Source: Phycisphaerae bacterium
GTDB lineage: Bacteria > Planctomycetota > Phycisphaerae > Tepidisphaerales > Tepidisphaeraceae
Assembly: GCA_030448225.1 (NCBI GenBank)
Contig: JAUJNJ010000010.1
Coordinates: forward strand, 29,073-93,072
DNA length: 64,000 nt
Direction: 5' to 3'
Below, one piece after another: positions 46,437 through 53,793 of the stretch. The notes beneath the pieces are model-generated. The model worked only from the letters and a program-made list of their open reading frames with translations. It ran no database searches and had not been told where the DNA came from. Positions within the stretch are counted from its first letter, which is position 1. Each line of letters begins with the position of its first letter. The position numbers and the translations under genes are program-made.

Positions 46437-48188
46437 ATGCCCAGCGAGCCGCCCGCCGAAGGTGCCGAACCGACCGAGTCTCCATCGCCGTCGTCCGGTG
46501 CCGTGCCGTCGCGCGACGTGGCGCCGGGCGCTCCGTCCGCCCCGTCGTCCGCCTCGTCCGCGGCCGCGCCGGAGGGGGGCGTGAAGGAGACGGTCGAGTC
46601 GATCCTGATCGCGTTCATCCTCGCGTTCATCTTCCGCGCGTTCGTCGTCGAGGCGTTCGTCATCCCCACCGGCTCGATGGCCCCGACCCTGCTCGGCGCC
46701 CACATGCGGTTCGACTGCACCGACTGCGGCTACGACTTCGACGTCAACTACTCCAGCCCCTCGTCCGGCGGCGGCGAGGTGAACATCCCCGCCTACGCCG
46801 ACGGCAACACCTACGCCGTCCACTGCCCCAACTGCGGGCTGAAGGTCCCACGGTCGCTCCGCCCCGACGGCGTGATGAAGGACGTGCCGCCCGGCGACCC
46901 GGAGAACGACGCCACCGCCCCGCCAGTTCACTACGGCGACCGCATCCTCGTGCTGAAGTACGTCTACGAACTCTTCGAGCCGAAGCGGTGGGACGTGGTG
47001 GTCTTCAAGAGCCCGGACGTGCAGCCGGGGGAGGCGCCGTTCACCGTGAACTTCATCAAGCGGCTGATCGGCACGCCGAACGAGTCGGTGATGATCCTCG
47101 ACGGCGACATCTACTCGCGCCCGCGCGGGGCCGAGCAGTACGCGGTGCAGACCAAGCCGCGCGTCGCGCAGGACGCGCTGTGGCGCGTCGTGTACGACAA
47201 CGACTACCTCCCCCGCCGGCCCGGCTGGACGCAGCCCTGGCGGCCTGTGGCCGGTTCGGGGTGGGACGTCCGCGCCGGCGAGCAGACCGACGCCCGCCGC
47301 CAGTTCGCGTTCGCCAACCCGACCGGCGCCGGGTGGATCGCGTTCGAACCTGACCCGTCGTCGCAAAGCGAAAACCAGCCGCTGACCGACTGGCTCGCCT
47401 ACGCCGTCACCCGCCGGCAGTGGCCGAGCGGCTCGCCCGACAGCTTCGACAGCGACGGGCTCGTCGCGCAGAACAACGTGAGCGACCTGAAGCTCGACCT
47501 CTTCTACGAGCGGCGCGAGGGGGACGGCCCGCTCCGGCTGGAGTTGACGAAGCTCGACGACACGTTCACCGCGGAGATCTACCCCGACCGCGTCCGCCTG
47601 CTCCGCGCCGCCGGCGACGCGGCGCCGATCGAGGTGATGCCGCCGGTCGCGCTGGCCGAGGGGCGCCGCGGGCCGCTGCGGGTGGAGTTCACGAACGTCG
47701 ACTACCGCGTCGCGCTACGGATCAACGGGCGCGACTACCTGGCGACGACGCCGCAGCAGTACGCGCCGGACCTCGACCGCCTCCGCCGCGCCTACGACCG
47801 CCGCGAGCAGTTGCCGCCGGCGCGGGTGCGGATCGGCGCCGAGGGGCAGGCGTGCCGCCTGTCGCACGTCGGGCTGTGGCGCGACGTCTACTACACGAAC
47901 CGCGACGCCCAGTCGATGCCGCAGTTCGCGCTGCCGGACAACCCGGTCGAGTTGGGGGCCGACGAGTACTTCGTGCTCGGCGACAACGCGCTGATGAGCG
48001 GCGACGCCCGCTACTGGGGCCGGTCGGTCAACCTGCCCGGCGAGAACCTCACCGCAGGCCCCGCCCGCGTGCCCGGCCGGTTCCTGCTGGGCCAGGCCTT
48101 CTTCGTCTACTGGCCCGCCGGCTACCGCCCCTTCCGCGGCGCCCCCGGCCTCGTGCCGAACTTCGGCGACATGCGGTCCATCCACTGA
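46437..48188 (+). CDS. lepB: signal peptidase I with zinc ribbon and large insert
   Basis: Intact, 583 residues, about twice the usual length. A Pro/Ser/Ala-rich cytoplasmic leader precedes one membrane helix (ILIAFILAFIFRAFVVEAFV). The catalytic Ser80 is in VIPTGSMAPTLLG. A zinc ribbon not found in E. coli LepB follows: Cys94, Cys97, Cys130 and Cys133 (DCTDCGYDFD and HCPNCGLKV). The catalytic Lys208 is in NFIKRLIGTPNESV. A beta-rich insert of roughly 270 residues (about 230-505) separates this from the last conserved box LGDNALMSGDARYWG. It cleaves signal peptides of exported proteins, of which the window has many. It lies 177 bases downstream of the sigma/anti-sigma genes and may be read with them. 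Confidence 0.9.
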   Translation: MPSEPPAEGAEPTESPSPSSGAVPSRDVAPGAPSAPSSASSAAAPEGGVKETVESILIAFILAFIFRAFVVEAFVIPTGSMAPTLLGAHMRFDCTDCGYDFDVNYSSPSSGGGEVNIPAYADGNTYAVHCPNCGLKVPRSLRPDGVMKDVPPGDPENDATAPPVHYGDRILVLKYVYELFEPKRWDVVVFKSPDVQPGEAPFTVNFIKRLIGTPNESVMILDGDIYSRPRGAEQYAVQTKPRVAQDALWRVVYDNDYLPRRPGWTQPWRPVAGSGWDVRAGEQTDARRQFAFANPTGAGWIAFEPDPSSQSENQPLTDWLAYAVTRRQWPSGSPDSFDSDGLVAQNNVSDLKLDLFYERREGDGPLRLELTKLDDTFTAEIYPDRVRLLRAAGDAAPIEVMPPVALAEGRRGPLRVEFTNVDYRVALRINGRDYLATTPQQYAPDLDRLRRAYDRREQLPPARVRIGAEGQACRLSHVGLWRDVYYTNRDAQSMPQFALPDNPVELGADEYFVLGDNALMSGDARYWGRSVNLPGENLTAGPARVPGRFLLGQAFFVYWPAGYRPFRGAPGLVPNFGDMRSIH

Positions 48189-48234: not shown

Positions 48235-48741
48235 TTAAGCCGGCGCCGCCCCGCACTCCGGGCAGCGGCCGGGCGTGGCGCGAAGGTCGTACCCGCAGGC
48301 GGGGCATTGGCCGGCGCGGCGGCGGCTTCGCCGGCGGCACGTCACCCACGTGAGGCGTGCGGACAGCGAGAGCGTCAGCAGCACCAGGGACCACAGCGGC
48401 ACGTTAACGCACCAATCGAACGACCCGCCCCCGGACATGAAGCCAAAGCCGAGCGCGTGGTACCGGCGGGCGGGACGGTCCAATTCCGCCTGCTCGTGCC
48501 ACGAATGCAGGAGCCCGCCGTCGAACGCCACCCTCACCGCCGGGACCCGCCCCGGATCGACGTCGCGAATCCGATGAGCCAGCAACTGCCCTCGCGACAC
48601 GTAGACCCCGTACCCGCCGCCGGTGTCCGAGCGCACCACGCCCGCCGACGCCCAGTAGCTCCGCACCCAGAGCACGCTCAGTGCGGCGAACAGCAGCAGC
48701 AGCGAGAGCGCAAAGGTGAAGGTGAACAGGCGGCGACGCAC
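48235..48741 (-). CDS. one-TM protein with C-terminal zinc ribbon, paralogue A
   Basis: From the GTG at 48741 it begins VRRRLFTFTFALSLLLLFAA, a basic start and membrane helix shared with paralogues B and C. A middle domain follows, then a second hydrophobic stretch (VPLWSLVLLTLSLSARLTW). The end is the double-CxxC ribbon CPACGYDLRATPGRCPECG. About 168 residues. I prefer the GTG over the upstream in-frame start because all copies start with this phrase. The ribbon is a hallmark found in many planctomycete proteins of unknown function. It follows the signal peptidase gene, convergent. Confidence 0.8.
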   Translation of the reverse strand: MRRRLFTFTFALSLLLLFAALSVLWVRSYWASAGVVRSDTGGGYGVYVSRGQLLAHRIRDVDPGRVPAVRVAFDGGLLHSWHEQAELDRPARRYHALGFGFMSGGGSFDWCVNVPLWSLVLLTLSLSARLTWVTCRRRSRRRAGQCPACGYDLRATPGRCPECGAAPA

Positions 48742-48848
48742 GAGATGGAGTGTACCGCAGGTCGGGGAGACTGCTGATGCACTGCCGCGGCCCTCGTCGG
48801 AGAGGGGGTCTCGCACGATCGGGGCGAGGCTTGGGGCGACGCCGCGTC

Positions 48849-49292
48849 CTAGCAGTTCGCCCGCGCGTTACGGATCTCGCGAACGTGCGCCCGCACCTCT
48901 CGAACCGGAAAATTTGACTGCAGCCCCCGCCGCCGACGCCGCAGGTGCTCTTCGGCCTGACCGAGCGCCTCGGCCGCGGATTTGCCGGCCTCGAGTAGCA
49001 CGAGGGAGAGCAGGTAGTGGGCGTCCAACTGAAGGCTCCGCGCGTCGGCGGTGGCGCACCGGCGGCGCAGTTCCGCGAGGGTGGCGGCGACCAATTCCCG
49101 CAGGATCGGCTCGGCCTCGCCGTCACGGCCGAGCATGTGCAGCGTGTTCGCGCGGTTGTACTGCGCGACCGGACACGCCGGGGCGACGGCCAGCGCCCGT
49201 TCGAACCACGGGAGCGCGGCGGCGTACCGCCGGGCCTCGTGCAGGTCGAGCCCTCGCTCCACCAGTCGTTCGTGATCGAGCCGACGCGCCAT
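48849..49292 (-). CDS. small tetratricopeptide-repeat protein
   Basis: Intact, 147 residues. It contains at least two TPR-like helix pairs: GLDLHEARRYAAALPWFERA with LAVAPACPVAQYNRANTLHM, and LQLDAHYLLSLVLLEAGKSA. There is no signal peptide, so it is probably cytoplasmic. It sits between two members of the zinc-ribbon family on the same strand; a scaffold role is a guess. Confidence 0.75.
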   Translation of the reverse strand: MARRLDHERLVERGLDLHEARRYAAALPWFERALAVAPACPVAQYNRANTLHMLGRDGEAEPILRELVAATLAELRRRCATADARSLQLDAHYLLSLVLLEAGKSAAEALGQAEEHLRRRRRGLQSNFPVREVRAHVREIRNARANC

Positions 49293-49395
49293 CTCGCTAC
49301 CCCTTCCCGCTTGATTGCCGGCCCGTCCGGCGCGACGGCCGCCGCAGGCGCAACGTTCGCCTCCTCCAGCTCCGCCGCCACCGCCGCCGCCGTCG

Positions 49396-49842
49396 TCAAG
49401 GCACGACCTCAGCTCCGCACTCCGGGCAGCGGCCGGGCGTGGCGCGGAGGTCGTACCCGCAGGCGGGGCATTGGCCGGAGCTTCGTCGCCGGCGGGTGCG
49501 TCGCCATGCCCGGACCCGCGCGGCCGGAGCCGCGGCGGTCAGGGCGGCGAGGAACCAATGAGGCGCGCCCGCAGTGAAAACCACCACGCCCTGCGGGTAA
49601 TACGTGCGGTACCAGCCGAACCCGAACGCTTCCGGGCCGCTCCGTCCGGCGGTGCGGGCGGAAACGCCCTCCGCGGTGCGGTAGCCCATCCCGAGGCCGC
49701 GGACGGAGAACAGGACGGAGCGGCGCTCGTTGGACTGCAGCGCGTCCCCGTCCGTCAAGTAGATCCGCGCCCACAGCACGCACACGGCCACGCACAGCAG
49801 CAGCGACAGGGCCGAGCAGAGGGTGAACAGGCGACGACGCAC
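49396..49842 (-). CDS. one-TM protein with C-terminal zinc ribbon, paralogue B
   Basis: 148 residues from a GTG at 49842. N-terminus RRRLFTLCSALSLLLCVAVC, then a middle of about 60 residues different from A and C, a second hydrophobic segment (HWFLAALTAAAPAARV) and the ribbon CPACGYDLRATPGRCPECG. The DNA coding the ribbon (49413-49458) is identical over 46 bases to that of paralogue C (49869-49914), which points to recent duplication or gene conversion. Confidence 0.8.
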   Translation of the reverse strand: MRRRLFTLCSALSLLLCVAVCVLWARIYLTDGDALQSNERRSVLFSVRGLGMGYRTAEGVSARTAGRSGPEAFGFGWYRTYYPQGVVVFTAGAPHWFLAALTAAAPAARVRAWRRTRRRRSSGQCPACGYDLRATPGRCPECGAEVVP

Positions 49843-49851
49843 GATGAGAGT

Positions 49852-50535
49852 CTACCGCGCCTGCTCCGCTCCGCACTCCGGGCAGCGGCCGGGCGTGGCG
49901 CGGAGGTCGTACCCACAGGCGGTACAGCAACCGGCCCGGCGGCGGCCGGCGGTGAGGCGCGCGCGACGGAGCCGGTGGGCGAGGAGGCCAGCCGGCGGGA
50001 CGCCGATGACCAGCAGGGCGGACGCGACCGCCCATGCGGGCACGCGCCAACGCCTCGCGTAGACGACGGCCGTGTCGTCCGTGTACGCCAGCAGGCCGAG
50101 CTGATGGACGAACCCGGCGCCCGACCACTCGGTGCGGCGCACCGGCATCATCATCGTGTCGGTCGACGCGGACCGCGGGAGGACCGTCAGCCGTTCCGGC
50201 GCCGGAGACGGCGTGCCGTACCAACTCCCGTTCGTGAACCCGGAATGCCACACGTCGACCAGTTCATCTGGCCGGAACCAATTTGCCGGCTCGTGCCACA
50301 ACCGGAAGCCGCGTGCCCGCCCGGGCCGGTGGCCCGGCGCCAGGTACGTTCGCTCGGGCGGGCCGATGCTGACGTGGACGGCGCCGCGGGACAACAAGAA
50401 GCCGAACGAGGTCGCGGAGGGGTCGTGCCGTGCGAAACCCACTCCGTAACTCAAGCTCCACACCCACAGCGCCCCCGCCGCCACGCAGAGCAGCAACGAC
50501 ACGGCCGAGCAAAGGGTGAAGAGGCGTGGGCGCAC
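49852..50535 (-). CDS. one-TM protein with C-terminal zinc ribbon, paralogue C
   Basis: 227 residues from a GTG at 50535. N-terminus RPRLFTLCSAVSLLLCVAAG is close to B. The middle is longer (about 130 residues) and unrelated in sequence to A or B, followed by a hydrophobic stretch (AWAVASALLVIGVPPAGLL) and the ribbon CTACGYDLRATPGRCPECG. It is upstream of B with a 9-base gap, so the two are very likely one transcript. Confidence 0.8.
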   Translation of the reverse strand: MRPRLFTLCSAVSLLLCVAAGALWVWSLSYGVGFARHDPSATSFGFLLSRGAVHVSIGPPERTYLAPGHRPGRARGFRLWHEPANWFRPDELVDVWHSGFTNGSWYGTPSPAPERLTVLPRSASTDTMMMPVRRTEWSGAGFVHQLGLLAYTDDTAVVYARRWRVPAWAVASALLVIGVPPAGLLAHRLRRARLTAGRRRAGCCTACGYDLRATPGRCPECGAEQAR

Positions 50536-50544
50536 GATGGGAGT

Positions 50545-50700
50545 TTACCCCGCCTGCTCCGCTCCGCACTCCGGACAACGGCCGGGCGTGGCGCGGAGCG
50601 TCGTAGCCGCAGGACTGGCAGAGGCCGCCCTGCTTGCGGCGGGCGGCTCGGACATATGCCCCGAGGTGCGCTGCCGGGCGGACAATAGTCGCTCGCGCAG
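50545..50700 (-). pseudogene. C-terminal remnant of a fourth zinc-ribbon paralogue
   Basis: Ends at the TAA at 50545-50547, only 9 bases from paralogue C. It keeps RAARRKQGGLCQSCGYD and, after one missing base, LRATPGRCPECGAEQ. The conserved RRLFTL start and membrane helix are absent, because the stop of the dehydrogenase gene lies only 200 bases upstream. It is probably a truncated copy. Confidence 0.6.
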
Positions 50701-50754: not shown

Positions 50755-53700
50755 CTACTTCCCCGCCGGTTTCCCCTCCGCGACGAACCGCAGCAGGTCG
50801 GCCATGTCCTGCGGCTTCAGCCCTTCCTCGAGGCCGTCGGGCATTATCGACAGGCCCATCGACCGCATCGCCTTGATCGTGTCGCGCGCGGCAATACCAC
50901 CTCCGTCCCGTACGCCATCCGCAGCGTGACGGCGTCGGCCGTTTCGGCCGCGACGATGCCGACGTGGGTGTCGCCCTTGCGGGTCTGGACGAGGTAGGCG
51001 GTGTAGTTTGGCGCGACCTCACGGCTCGGGTCGATGATGTTCGCCAGCAGTTTCTGGGATCCAAAGTTTCGGACCGTCTCCAGGTCCGGGCCGAGCGCGT
51101 GGCCGGCGCGCCGAGGCGGTGGCACGAGGCGCAGCGGGCGTCGAAAAGCGTCCGGCCGCGGGCGGCGTCGCCGGGGAGGTGGGCCGCGGCCGCGAACGGC
51201 GCGCACGACGTCCTCGCTTGCCGGCGCGCGACGCGAACGCCTTGGCCGCGGCGGCCCGCACGGCGGCGTCGTCGCTCTGGCGGAGGGCCGCCACCTGCGA
51301 CGCGGTGAGATCGCCGGCGCGGACGGCGCCGGCGTCGATCGCCGCCAGCAGTTCGGCGGCGCGGGCCTGGCGCTTGATCAGCACGTCCGCGGCCGCCTCC
51401 CGCACGCGCGGCGAGTTCGCAGCGGCGGAGGAGTTCCGCGGCGAGGTCCCCTCGTCGAGCCGATCGAGTGCCGCGACGGCCGCGAGTTGAACGTCCTGCG
51501 GGTCGCGCGGGCCGAGCCGCGCCGACAGCAGCGCCGCGGCCGACGCGTCCCACGTCGTGTGGGCGAGCGTCCCGGCCGCGGCAGAACGGGCGGCGGGGAC
51601 GGACTTGTCGTCGGCGACGATCGTTCGCCCGCCGCAGGATCTCCGCCCACTCCCGCGACTCCCGGAACTTCGCGGATGCGCGCGCGCCGTCCGCGAGCCG
51701 CCCGAGCGAGCGACATCGTCTCGGAAACGTCCGGCCGTTCGACCGCCGCAGCACGCGCGCGATCTCTTCGCCGCGCCGCGCCGCGATCATCCCGGCCAAT
51801 TTCGGCCCGAGCCGGCGCGCCCGGCGACGGCCGCGGGCGACGCGTCGGCGTAGAGGCTTGCGAACAGCGCGACCGCCTCGCCGCCGATCGCCTTCAGCAC
51901 GGCCGCCTCCACCCACGGGTCGCCCCCGCCGGCGGCGTAGATCGCCGCGAGGTGCCGGGGCCGATCCGGATGGGTGATGATGCCCAACGTGAGGGCGAGT
52001 TGGTAACGGACGTTCGCCGACGGGTCGCTCGCGAGTTCGCTCAGGCCGCCGAGCAGATTGGCGTCAGCCAATCCACCGGCCCGCAGGAAATTCTCGCCCA
52101 ACCGCACGGCGTGTTTCCGCACGTCTTCGTCCAGATCGCGCATCGCCGCCGCGACGTGTTTCGGCTCCAGCGCCGAGGCCGCTCAGCCGCGTACATCGCG
52201 TGGAGTCGCCCGAGCGCGGCGGTTCTCGCATCCGCCTGCTTCGCCGCCGGCATTCGCAACATCGCGTCGAGCAACGGCACCGCGGCTGCGTCTTGCCGCT
52301 CGAACAGCAGGCGGGCGGCGGTGTCGCGGTGCCAGCCGTTGGGGTGGGCGAGCGTGCGGACGAGTTCCGCGGCCGGGGCCGCGCCGAGCCGCACCGGCGG
52401 GCGGCGGGTGAACTTCTCCGGCACGACGCGGTAGATGCGGCCGCGGTCGTTGCCGCTGTTGAGGTCGAGGTGCTTCTTCAGCGACGGCGGGAGCGACCAG
52501 GGGTGCTCGATCGTCTGGCGGTACATGTCCAGCACGTAGAGGCACCCGTCCGGTGCATTGAGGAACTGCACCGGCCGGAACCACGTGTCGGTGCTGGCGA
52601 GGAACTCGCGTTTCTGCTCTCGGGCGCGCGGCGCGCGTACGACCACGCCGTCGAGCGCGCGGTTTCTTGCGGTGTACGAGGTGGCCGCCCGCGTCGCCGA
52701 TGACCGCGTCGCCGGCTAATGGTGGACCGTACGCGTCGCCGCGGTAGATCGTGACGCCGGTCGCGCCGGTGAAATATCCGGCCGATCGGCCGCCCCCCTC
52801 GATCATGCCCCGCACCGCGCCGCTGACGCGCCACTTCGTGCGGATGACGCGCCACGGCTCCTCCGGGCTGGCGCGGTACACCTCGGCGGCGGGGCCGTCG
52901 ACGGCGATGTCGATCAGCGGCCGGGGCATCGCGTAGTCGCCGGCGTCGGCGACGGCGTAGCGGCGGTCGTAGGCGAAGGTTTGGATGTGGTGGCTGTTCG
53001 AGCAGACGTAGGTGCGGCCGGCGTCGTCGAACGACAGGCCGTGCTGCCCGCCGCCGTTCTCGGCGCGGATCTCGAGCGTGCGCGGGTCGAACGAGAACCC
53101 GCTGCCGCGCAGGTCGAGCGCGTCTGCCGGGCCAGCGCCGGCGCGGCGGACGCGCCCGCCGGAGAGGGAGGCCGAGCCGTGGACGCGGTTGTCGAGGCCC
53201 CAGTTGAAGCTGTTGAGCAGCGCCTGCACGTTGAGCTTCGCGTTGCCGTCGGCGAAGCCGGTGTAGACGACGCGGCGCTCGTCGGCGACGCCGTCGCCGG
53301 TCATGTCCTTCAGGTACAGCACGTCCGGCGTCGAGCCGACGAAGACGCCGCCCTGCCAGCAGAAGATCGCGGTGGGCCAGGCGAGGTCGTCGGCGAAGGT
53401 GGTGGCGCGGTCGAAGGCGCCGTCGCCGTCGGTGTCGTCGAGCAGGCGCACCCGGCCGAGGCGGTCGTCGCGGCGCTCGGAGTAGTCGCGCATCTCGATG
53501 ACGTACAGCCGGCCGTTCTCGTCGAAGCAGCCGGCGATCGGGTCGACCACGAGCGGCTCGGCCGCCGCGAGCTCGACGCGGAAGCCGGGTCGGACCTTCA
53601 TTGTCGCGACCGCGTCCTTCGGCTCGACCGCTGGGTATCGCGGCATCTCCGCTTCGCTCACCTCGGGCTCCGCCGCGACAGTCGAACCGGCGGCGCAGGC

Positions 53701-53793
53701 GAAGATGGCGATTGCGAGCGCCGCGACCGCGGCCCGCGGGAATCGAAACGGCACGTGCTGAGCGAAAACGAATCTCTCACCGGATGAACGCAT
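50755..53793 (-). CDS. PVC-type haem-binding dehydrogenase with c-type cytochrome (frameshifted)
   Basis: About 1010 codons. The first 370 codons are open: a signal peptide (AVAALAIAIFACAAGSTVAA), then propeller text ATMKVRPGFRVELAAAEPLV, DPIAGCFDENGRLYVIEMRD, RLLDDTDGDGAFDRATTFAD, LLNSFNWGLDNRVHG and ENGGGQHGLSFDDAGRTYVC. The frame then slips at about 52670, 52185, 51830 and several more times to the end. Later parts give STDTWFRPVQFLNAPDGCLY then VLDMYRQTIEHPWSLP, HEAT-like repeats, a haem site GRTLFDARCASCHRLG near 51125, and LGPDLETVRNFGSQKLLANI. It ends DMADLLRFVAEGKPAGK at 50755. Same architecture as the genes at 22400 and 34129. Its start is only about 70 bases from the divergent amidohydrolase. 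Confidence 0.8.

Follow-up and report, generated by a model that had tools for sequence, protein, structure and literature searches.

Similar ends and variable middles in a tandem family of small planctomycete membrane proteins: modest homogenisation in one window and signs of exchange in relatives

The locus analysed here lies in a window of 64,000 nucleotides, the term being used for the whole stretch of DNA, and raises the question of why neighbouring genes begin and end alike while the parts in between look unrelated. The original prediction explained this by cassettes, the ends recombining while the core diversifies. Here, the relatedness of the middles, the divergence of ends and middles and the signs of recombination were analysed in the window and in related genomes.

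The locus and its family

Genes C, B, a TPR-repeat ORF and A follow each other in this order on the minus strand of 48235-50640, with a ribbon fragment of a fourth copy upstream of C (Table 1). ORFs, translations and a string search confirmed the predicted three genes and remnant with common start and ribbon: the start VR(R/P)RLFT is common to A, B and C, which finish with CGYDLRATPGRCPECGA and a few further residues, and the end CGYDLRATPGRCPECG is common to all three and the fragment. A, B and C are intact ORFs, for each of which an own promoter is possible. The frame break in the ribbon of the fragment may be real decay or a read error. The PVC-type heme-binding gene at 50756-53793 on the minus strand (TIGR02604/DUF7133, HEAT, TIGR02603) is in pieces across several frames and is either a pseudogene or a product of indel errors in the contig; the frameshift of the fragment may be an error as well. 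The TPR-repeat ORF had no tblastn match (E 1e-5) in the fetched loci. On the plus strand, at 46437-48188, the window encodes a signal peptidase I of 583 aa, which apparently carries long insertions, its Pfam match being split into three stretches. Matches to it at E<=1e-30 were present in 23 of 26 related genomes, and since identity to the longer matches in relatives is about 45-57%, no close relative was found.

Table 1. Positions of genes, repeats and putative promoter boxes at the tandem locus
Feature	Position in window	Strand	Remarks
Gene A	48235..48741	-	168 aa; predicted TM1, beta domain, TM2, Arg-rich tail, zinc ribbon
TACACT, at -13 of A	48749..48754	-	from sequence; A absent from TANNNT scan listing
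TPR-repeat ORF	48849..49292	-	separates A from B, same strand
Gene B	49396..49842	-	148 aa; predicted architecture as gene A; shortest middle among A, B, C
47-nt run, B ribbon, identical to C	49412..49458	-	position derived from string search and run comparison
Junction block, C/B	49761..49905	-	C ribbon end, stop, spacer, B start and TM1; 86% identical to 50454-50598
TAGACT, -10-like, at -12 of B	49849..49854	-	overlaps C stop codon; candidate leaderless promoter, from sequence
Gene C	49852..50535	-	227 aa; architecture as A by profile; longest middle among A, B, C
47-nt run, C ribbon, identical to B	49868..49914	-	position derived from string search and run comparison
Junction block, fragment/C	50454..50598	-	fragment ribbon end, stop, spacer, C start and TM1
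TAAACT, at -12 of C	50542..50547	-	overlaps stop codon of fragment; from sequence
Ribbon fragment of fourth copy	about 50545..50640	-	basic tail and ribbon; frame broken within ribbon

A, B and C fall within a large planctomycete family of small membrane proteins that apparently has no name. Homologues at E<=1e-3 numbered 4180 for A, 2250 for B and 1385 for C, and the few rows named by organism among the best 120 matches listed for each were Phycisphaerales or Tepidisphaeraceae. Of 26 genomes from a single family, that of G001 (the genome of locus L001, a Phycisphaerales MAG), 21 contained matches to the protein family, with 1 to 90 per genome, fragments included, as did at least 6 of 199 genomes drawn evenly across the phylum; the stretches fetched from two related genomes held at least 42 and 36 full-length copies. 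Scans of A, B and C against Pfam and NCBIfam gave no model at its cut-off: DZR (PF12773) reached 21, 20.2 and 14.2 bits, with a gathering cut-off of 27.3, and NF049953 (zinc ribbon-containing (seleno)protein DG), which has the C-terminal ribbon in common with the family, reached 18.8, 22 and 15.8 bits, the best being 22 against a cut-off of 130. DZR and Zn_ribbon_3 (PF13248) have two CxxC knuckles in common with the family, and DZR touched 69 of the 73 members of alignment A1 at E<=0.01, Pfam covering only the ribbon. None of the three proteins matched a PADLOC anti-phage defence family at E<=0.1, and no paper on the motif CGYDLR was found in the literature searched.

Architecture and relatedness of the middles

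In the predicted architecture, a basic start is followed by a first transmembrane helix (TM1), a small beta domain whose loop varies in length, a second helix (TM2), a stretch rich in Arg and a ribbon with four cysteines. The modelling of the middles for a common fold, as had been proposed, was run on A and B and yielded the same strand order in both AlphaFold2 models (pLDDT 79.7 for A and 82.2 for B), namely TM helix, three strands, loop, two main strands, TM helix and ribbon, with one short strand more in A; the two models are not independent, their alignments overlapping and A and C being rows in the alignment of B. Comparison with solved structures gave no clear fold match: the RseB/MucB periplasmic sensor domain (PDB) was tied with unrelated rows. 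The 238 family ORFs collected in the window and in eight genomes contained 142 distinct full-length copies, on which most family-wide comparisons were based, some using 92 full-length copies; the other 96 ORFs were partial or duplicate and left out of the pair tests. Most of the fetched copies are those that score best or lie in clusters, and not every copy is included. Over the 142 copies the standard deviation of length was 11.4 residues for the loop, 4.6 and 5.7 for the strand parts and 2.0 for TM1. Their net charge amounted to +2.4 in the start, +0.2 in the middle and +5.6 after TM2. With positive charge flanking both helices on the side of start and ribbon, the middle should face outward; by the positive-inside rule, that is, by charge alone, start and ribbon are probably cytoplasmic and the middle is probably outside the membrane.

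The claim that the middles have no visible similarity held by eye and in pairwise alignment, the scores being -16 for A/B, 0 for A/C and -40 for B/C as compared to a between-genome mean of -12, but profiles detected distant similarity. An HMM of 119 hits of a search with A as query, with A, B and C left out of training, matched the three proteins end to end at 172.6, 135.7 and 121.9 bits, covering HMM positions 3-171 in A, 5-169 in B and 5-171 in C. Middles including TM2 scored 71.6, 42.9 and 18.2 bits, values that 0 of 1000 shuffles reached in each case; after removal of TM2, 45.5, 7.0 and 5.7 bits remained, scores that 0, 22 and 9 of 1000 shuffles attained, so that in B and C the soluble part by itself gives weak evidence of homology. 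Moreover, the G, P, W, P, G and F positions of the middle are kept at 67-85% in the 142 copies. Judged by the profile and by the strand order predicted for A and B, the middles are one homologous domain and not unrelated inserts.

Repeated junctions, mosaics and divergence

The ribbon DNA of B and C had been described as identical over 46 bases: the identity is real, and the longest run is 47 nt, with 32 nt for both A/B and A/C. Searched with up to 3 mismatches, a 20-nt ribbon string had 3 matches in the window as compared to 0.02 expected. The repeated DNA extends beyond the ribbon into a contiguous junction block of 145 nt, from the ribbon end of one gene to TM1 of the next, which is 86% identical at fragment/C and C/B. 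Against a codon-usage null (26 ORFs), ribbon codons were in excess for A/B (18/21 vs 12.2, P 0.0045), B/C (16/19 vs 11.0, P 0.010) and A/C (15/19 vs 11.0, P 0.036). The signal was weaker in the starts, with an excess for A/B (P 0.013) and none for B/C (P 0.09) or A/C, and no excess was observed for TM2 or the middles. Synonymous divergence of TM2 in the window was as high as that of the middle, though TM2 lies on the "constant end" side, and the ends of B had 40/50 codons in common with a copy from another genome (G008), as compared to 34/49 for A and 32/47 for C. Taken together, codon comparisons in the window point to modest homogenisation at the junction and are no proof of cassette exchange there.

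The junctions also hold promoter-like boxes. Of the 142 copies, 126 had a start that could be used; TANNNT started between -20 and -8 in 57 of these, with 31 boxes starting exactly at -12; three shifted control windows gave 11-13 copies each. This suggests that the boxes are candidate leaderless promoters, family-specificity not being implied. Some tandem copies in relatives (L051, L059, L111) lack the box; by eye, their start is preceded by GAAGGGA-like purine runs, which looks as if one transcript served them. In G001, five similar copies on four contigs (L124, L123, L106, L108) have a stretch of DNA in common that begins 0 to about 66 nt before the gene and stops at about the gene end, or in one pair about 60 nt past it, as if the gene and its upstream box were a spreading unit.

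Two groups of relatives lend support to cassette exchange, which is not shown for the window. In the three tandem copies of L107 (G001), the ends are 83-85% identical with a synonymous divergence (pS) of 0.26-0.30, and one middle is foreign to both sisters, the DNA similarity stopping near the edge of TM1 and coming back at TM2. In G024, L073 has 76-83% of the ends in common with the L072 pair, in which the two middles are similar to one another and to those of L078, L082, L087 and L088; the L073 middle scores 24-30 with this pair as compared to 52 with L088. In each mosaic the middle of one member is foreign to its sisters and its ends are not, with a pS of 0.26-0.40 in the ends and 0.45-0.70 in the middles. 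A search for donor middles gave a best E of 0.045 for L107-1139 and, for L073, 0.0022 (P0168) and 0.0032 (L088), none of which is convincing. In tandem pairs with unalignable middles, ribbon codons were more alike than in same-genome controls in 22 of 28 pairs (p 0.004, the pairs being non-independent), as were the N-end residues (p 0.018), and the codon excess was non-significant for the N-end (p 0.10) and TM2 (p 0.14). Across 92 full-length copies, the nearest neighbour came from the same genome for 53% by ends and 33% by middle (permutation mean 19%), or 46% and 32% when partners at the same locus were excluded.

These mosaics, with limits near the TM edges, the same-genome preference of the ends and the repeated junction block of the window are what would be expected if recombination at the repeated ends carried whole middles from one copy to another, in the manner of silent-cassette or antigenic-variation systems. 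The pilin (pilS/pilE) and vls cassette systems combine constant flanks, a variable core and tandem repeated junctions, a pattern that the family has in common with them. Unlike these systems, however, the family consists of separate full ORFs, no single expressed site with silent copies was seen, the two mosaics lack a convincing donor, and middles are kept together with their ends in some between-genome pairs. In addition, the middles form one domain by profile and strand order, TM2 of the window is not conserved along with the ends, the start of B/C gives a weak signal, B is closer in end codons to a copy from another genome and two of six young groups of paralogues diverge evenly, all of which speaks against a simple cassette and makes exchange of this kind an unlikely general explanation. 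The original idea is thus partly supported: recombining ends find support in the two mosaic groups and in the ribbon codon excess of the tandem pairs and the window, and a simple cassette is unlikely.

Divergence among relatives bears on a second explanation, namely that the genes are old duplicates whose ends are held by purifying selection alone, the shared ribbon DNA being due to codon bias at about 73% G+C. Amino acid identity of the ribbon is 73% even between genomes, codon usage in the window is strongly skewed, and the codons that B shares with the G008 copy fit as well. Of the six groups that stand out among young same-genome paralogues, L172 (G005) and L051 (G021) diverge evenly, as plain duplication would have it; in the other four the amino acid identity of the ends is far above that of the middle (representative pairs, p 0.0036 to 2e-17). 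The synonymous comparison of ends with middles that had been called for was carried out. With the Nei-Gojobori method, pS was higher in the middle for 21 of the 23 pairs, and a count based on codons of unchanged residues gave 20 of 23; the pairs are non-independent and the excess is inflated where middles align badly. Lower synonymous divergence in the ends is not predicted by selection on the protein alone, and together with the ribbon codons above codon-usage expectation in the window it leaves plain paralogy rather improbable, slightly more so than the cassette explanation.

As for amino acid changes, dN of the middle was at least 2.5-fold that of the ends in most young groups examined. Three of the four uneven groups supplied seven pairs for bootstrapping, in which dN/dS was 0.82-1.54 in the middles and 0.27-0.96 in the ends, with intervals of the ends spanning 1 in 4/7. 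Values above 1 are not significant, all nine bootstrapped intervals beginning below 1, and 1 is reached in only 6/19 alignable pairs; the L107 middles gave 0.44-0.61 with dS saturated. Between genomes, nine pairs had alignable middles: the middle was less conserved than the ends in five and not significantly so in the other four, which were chosen for highest middle identity out of 11 listed and showed a middle dN/dS of 0.17-0.42. In L106-3414/L093, the middle agreed at 59/87 positions and the ends at 33/81. B and P0238, its best non-self hit and, by sequence, likely its orthologue, agreed evenly (N-end 18/28, middle 38/63, TM2 19/32, ribbon 18/21). Among paralogues, middles hence change fast; afterwards at least some of them are kept. 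The cassette idea had been expected to fail if the middles proved to be one slowly evolving domain: one domain they appear to be, but among paralogues their evolution is not slow. That the middles are relaxed, near-neutral linkers between working helices and ribbon, as a dN/dS of about 1 in several young pairs might indicate, is highly improbable in view of the purifying selection on the best-conserved between-genome middles and the kept G, P, W, P and GF positions.

A possible set of sensors or adaptors

The explanation that we favour, with a confidence little better than even, is a diversifying sensor or adaptor family whose ends owe their likeness mainly to purifying selection and, to some extent, to homogenisation between copies. 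The outer domain of each copy would recognise a different ligand or partner, and all ribbons would dock on one shared cytoplasmic partner; given such a partner, the ends would stay alike mainly through purifying selection. Recombination in the repeated junction, comprising ribbon, stop, spacer, start and TM1, might homogenise the ends slightly, create and delete copies, such as the fragment upstream of C, and occasionally result in a foreign middle flanked by ends that are kept. An inner ribbon that stays constant and an outer domain that varies would fit a sensor or adaptor set that shares an inner partner. No ligand, partner or function for the family was found in this analysis. A more far-reaching proposal, which we regard as doubtful, is modular receptor diversification, in which the junction, with one gene's end, a possible promoter and the next gene's start, would be a recombination site where outer-domain cassettes are shuffled onto a constant chassis of membrane part and ribbon, giving a genome-wide repertoire of membrane receptors.

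The family follows a rule whose consequences can be tested: the chassis is kept and the outer domain is free to change after duplication. If middles are exchanged, the family would represent a diversification system of a kind not found for planctomycetes in the literature searched. Since anchor and ribbon are kept while the outer part changes quickly, the three genes may be a bacterial set of sensors, and if the copies are receptors, they would offer a ready collection for studying what these planctomycetes sense.
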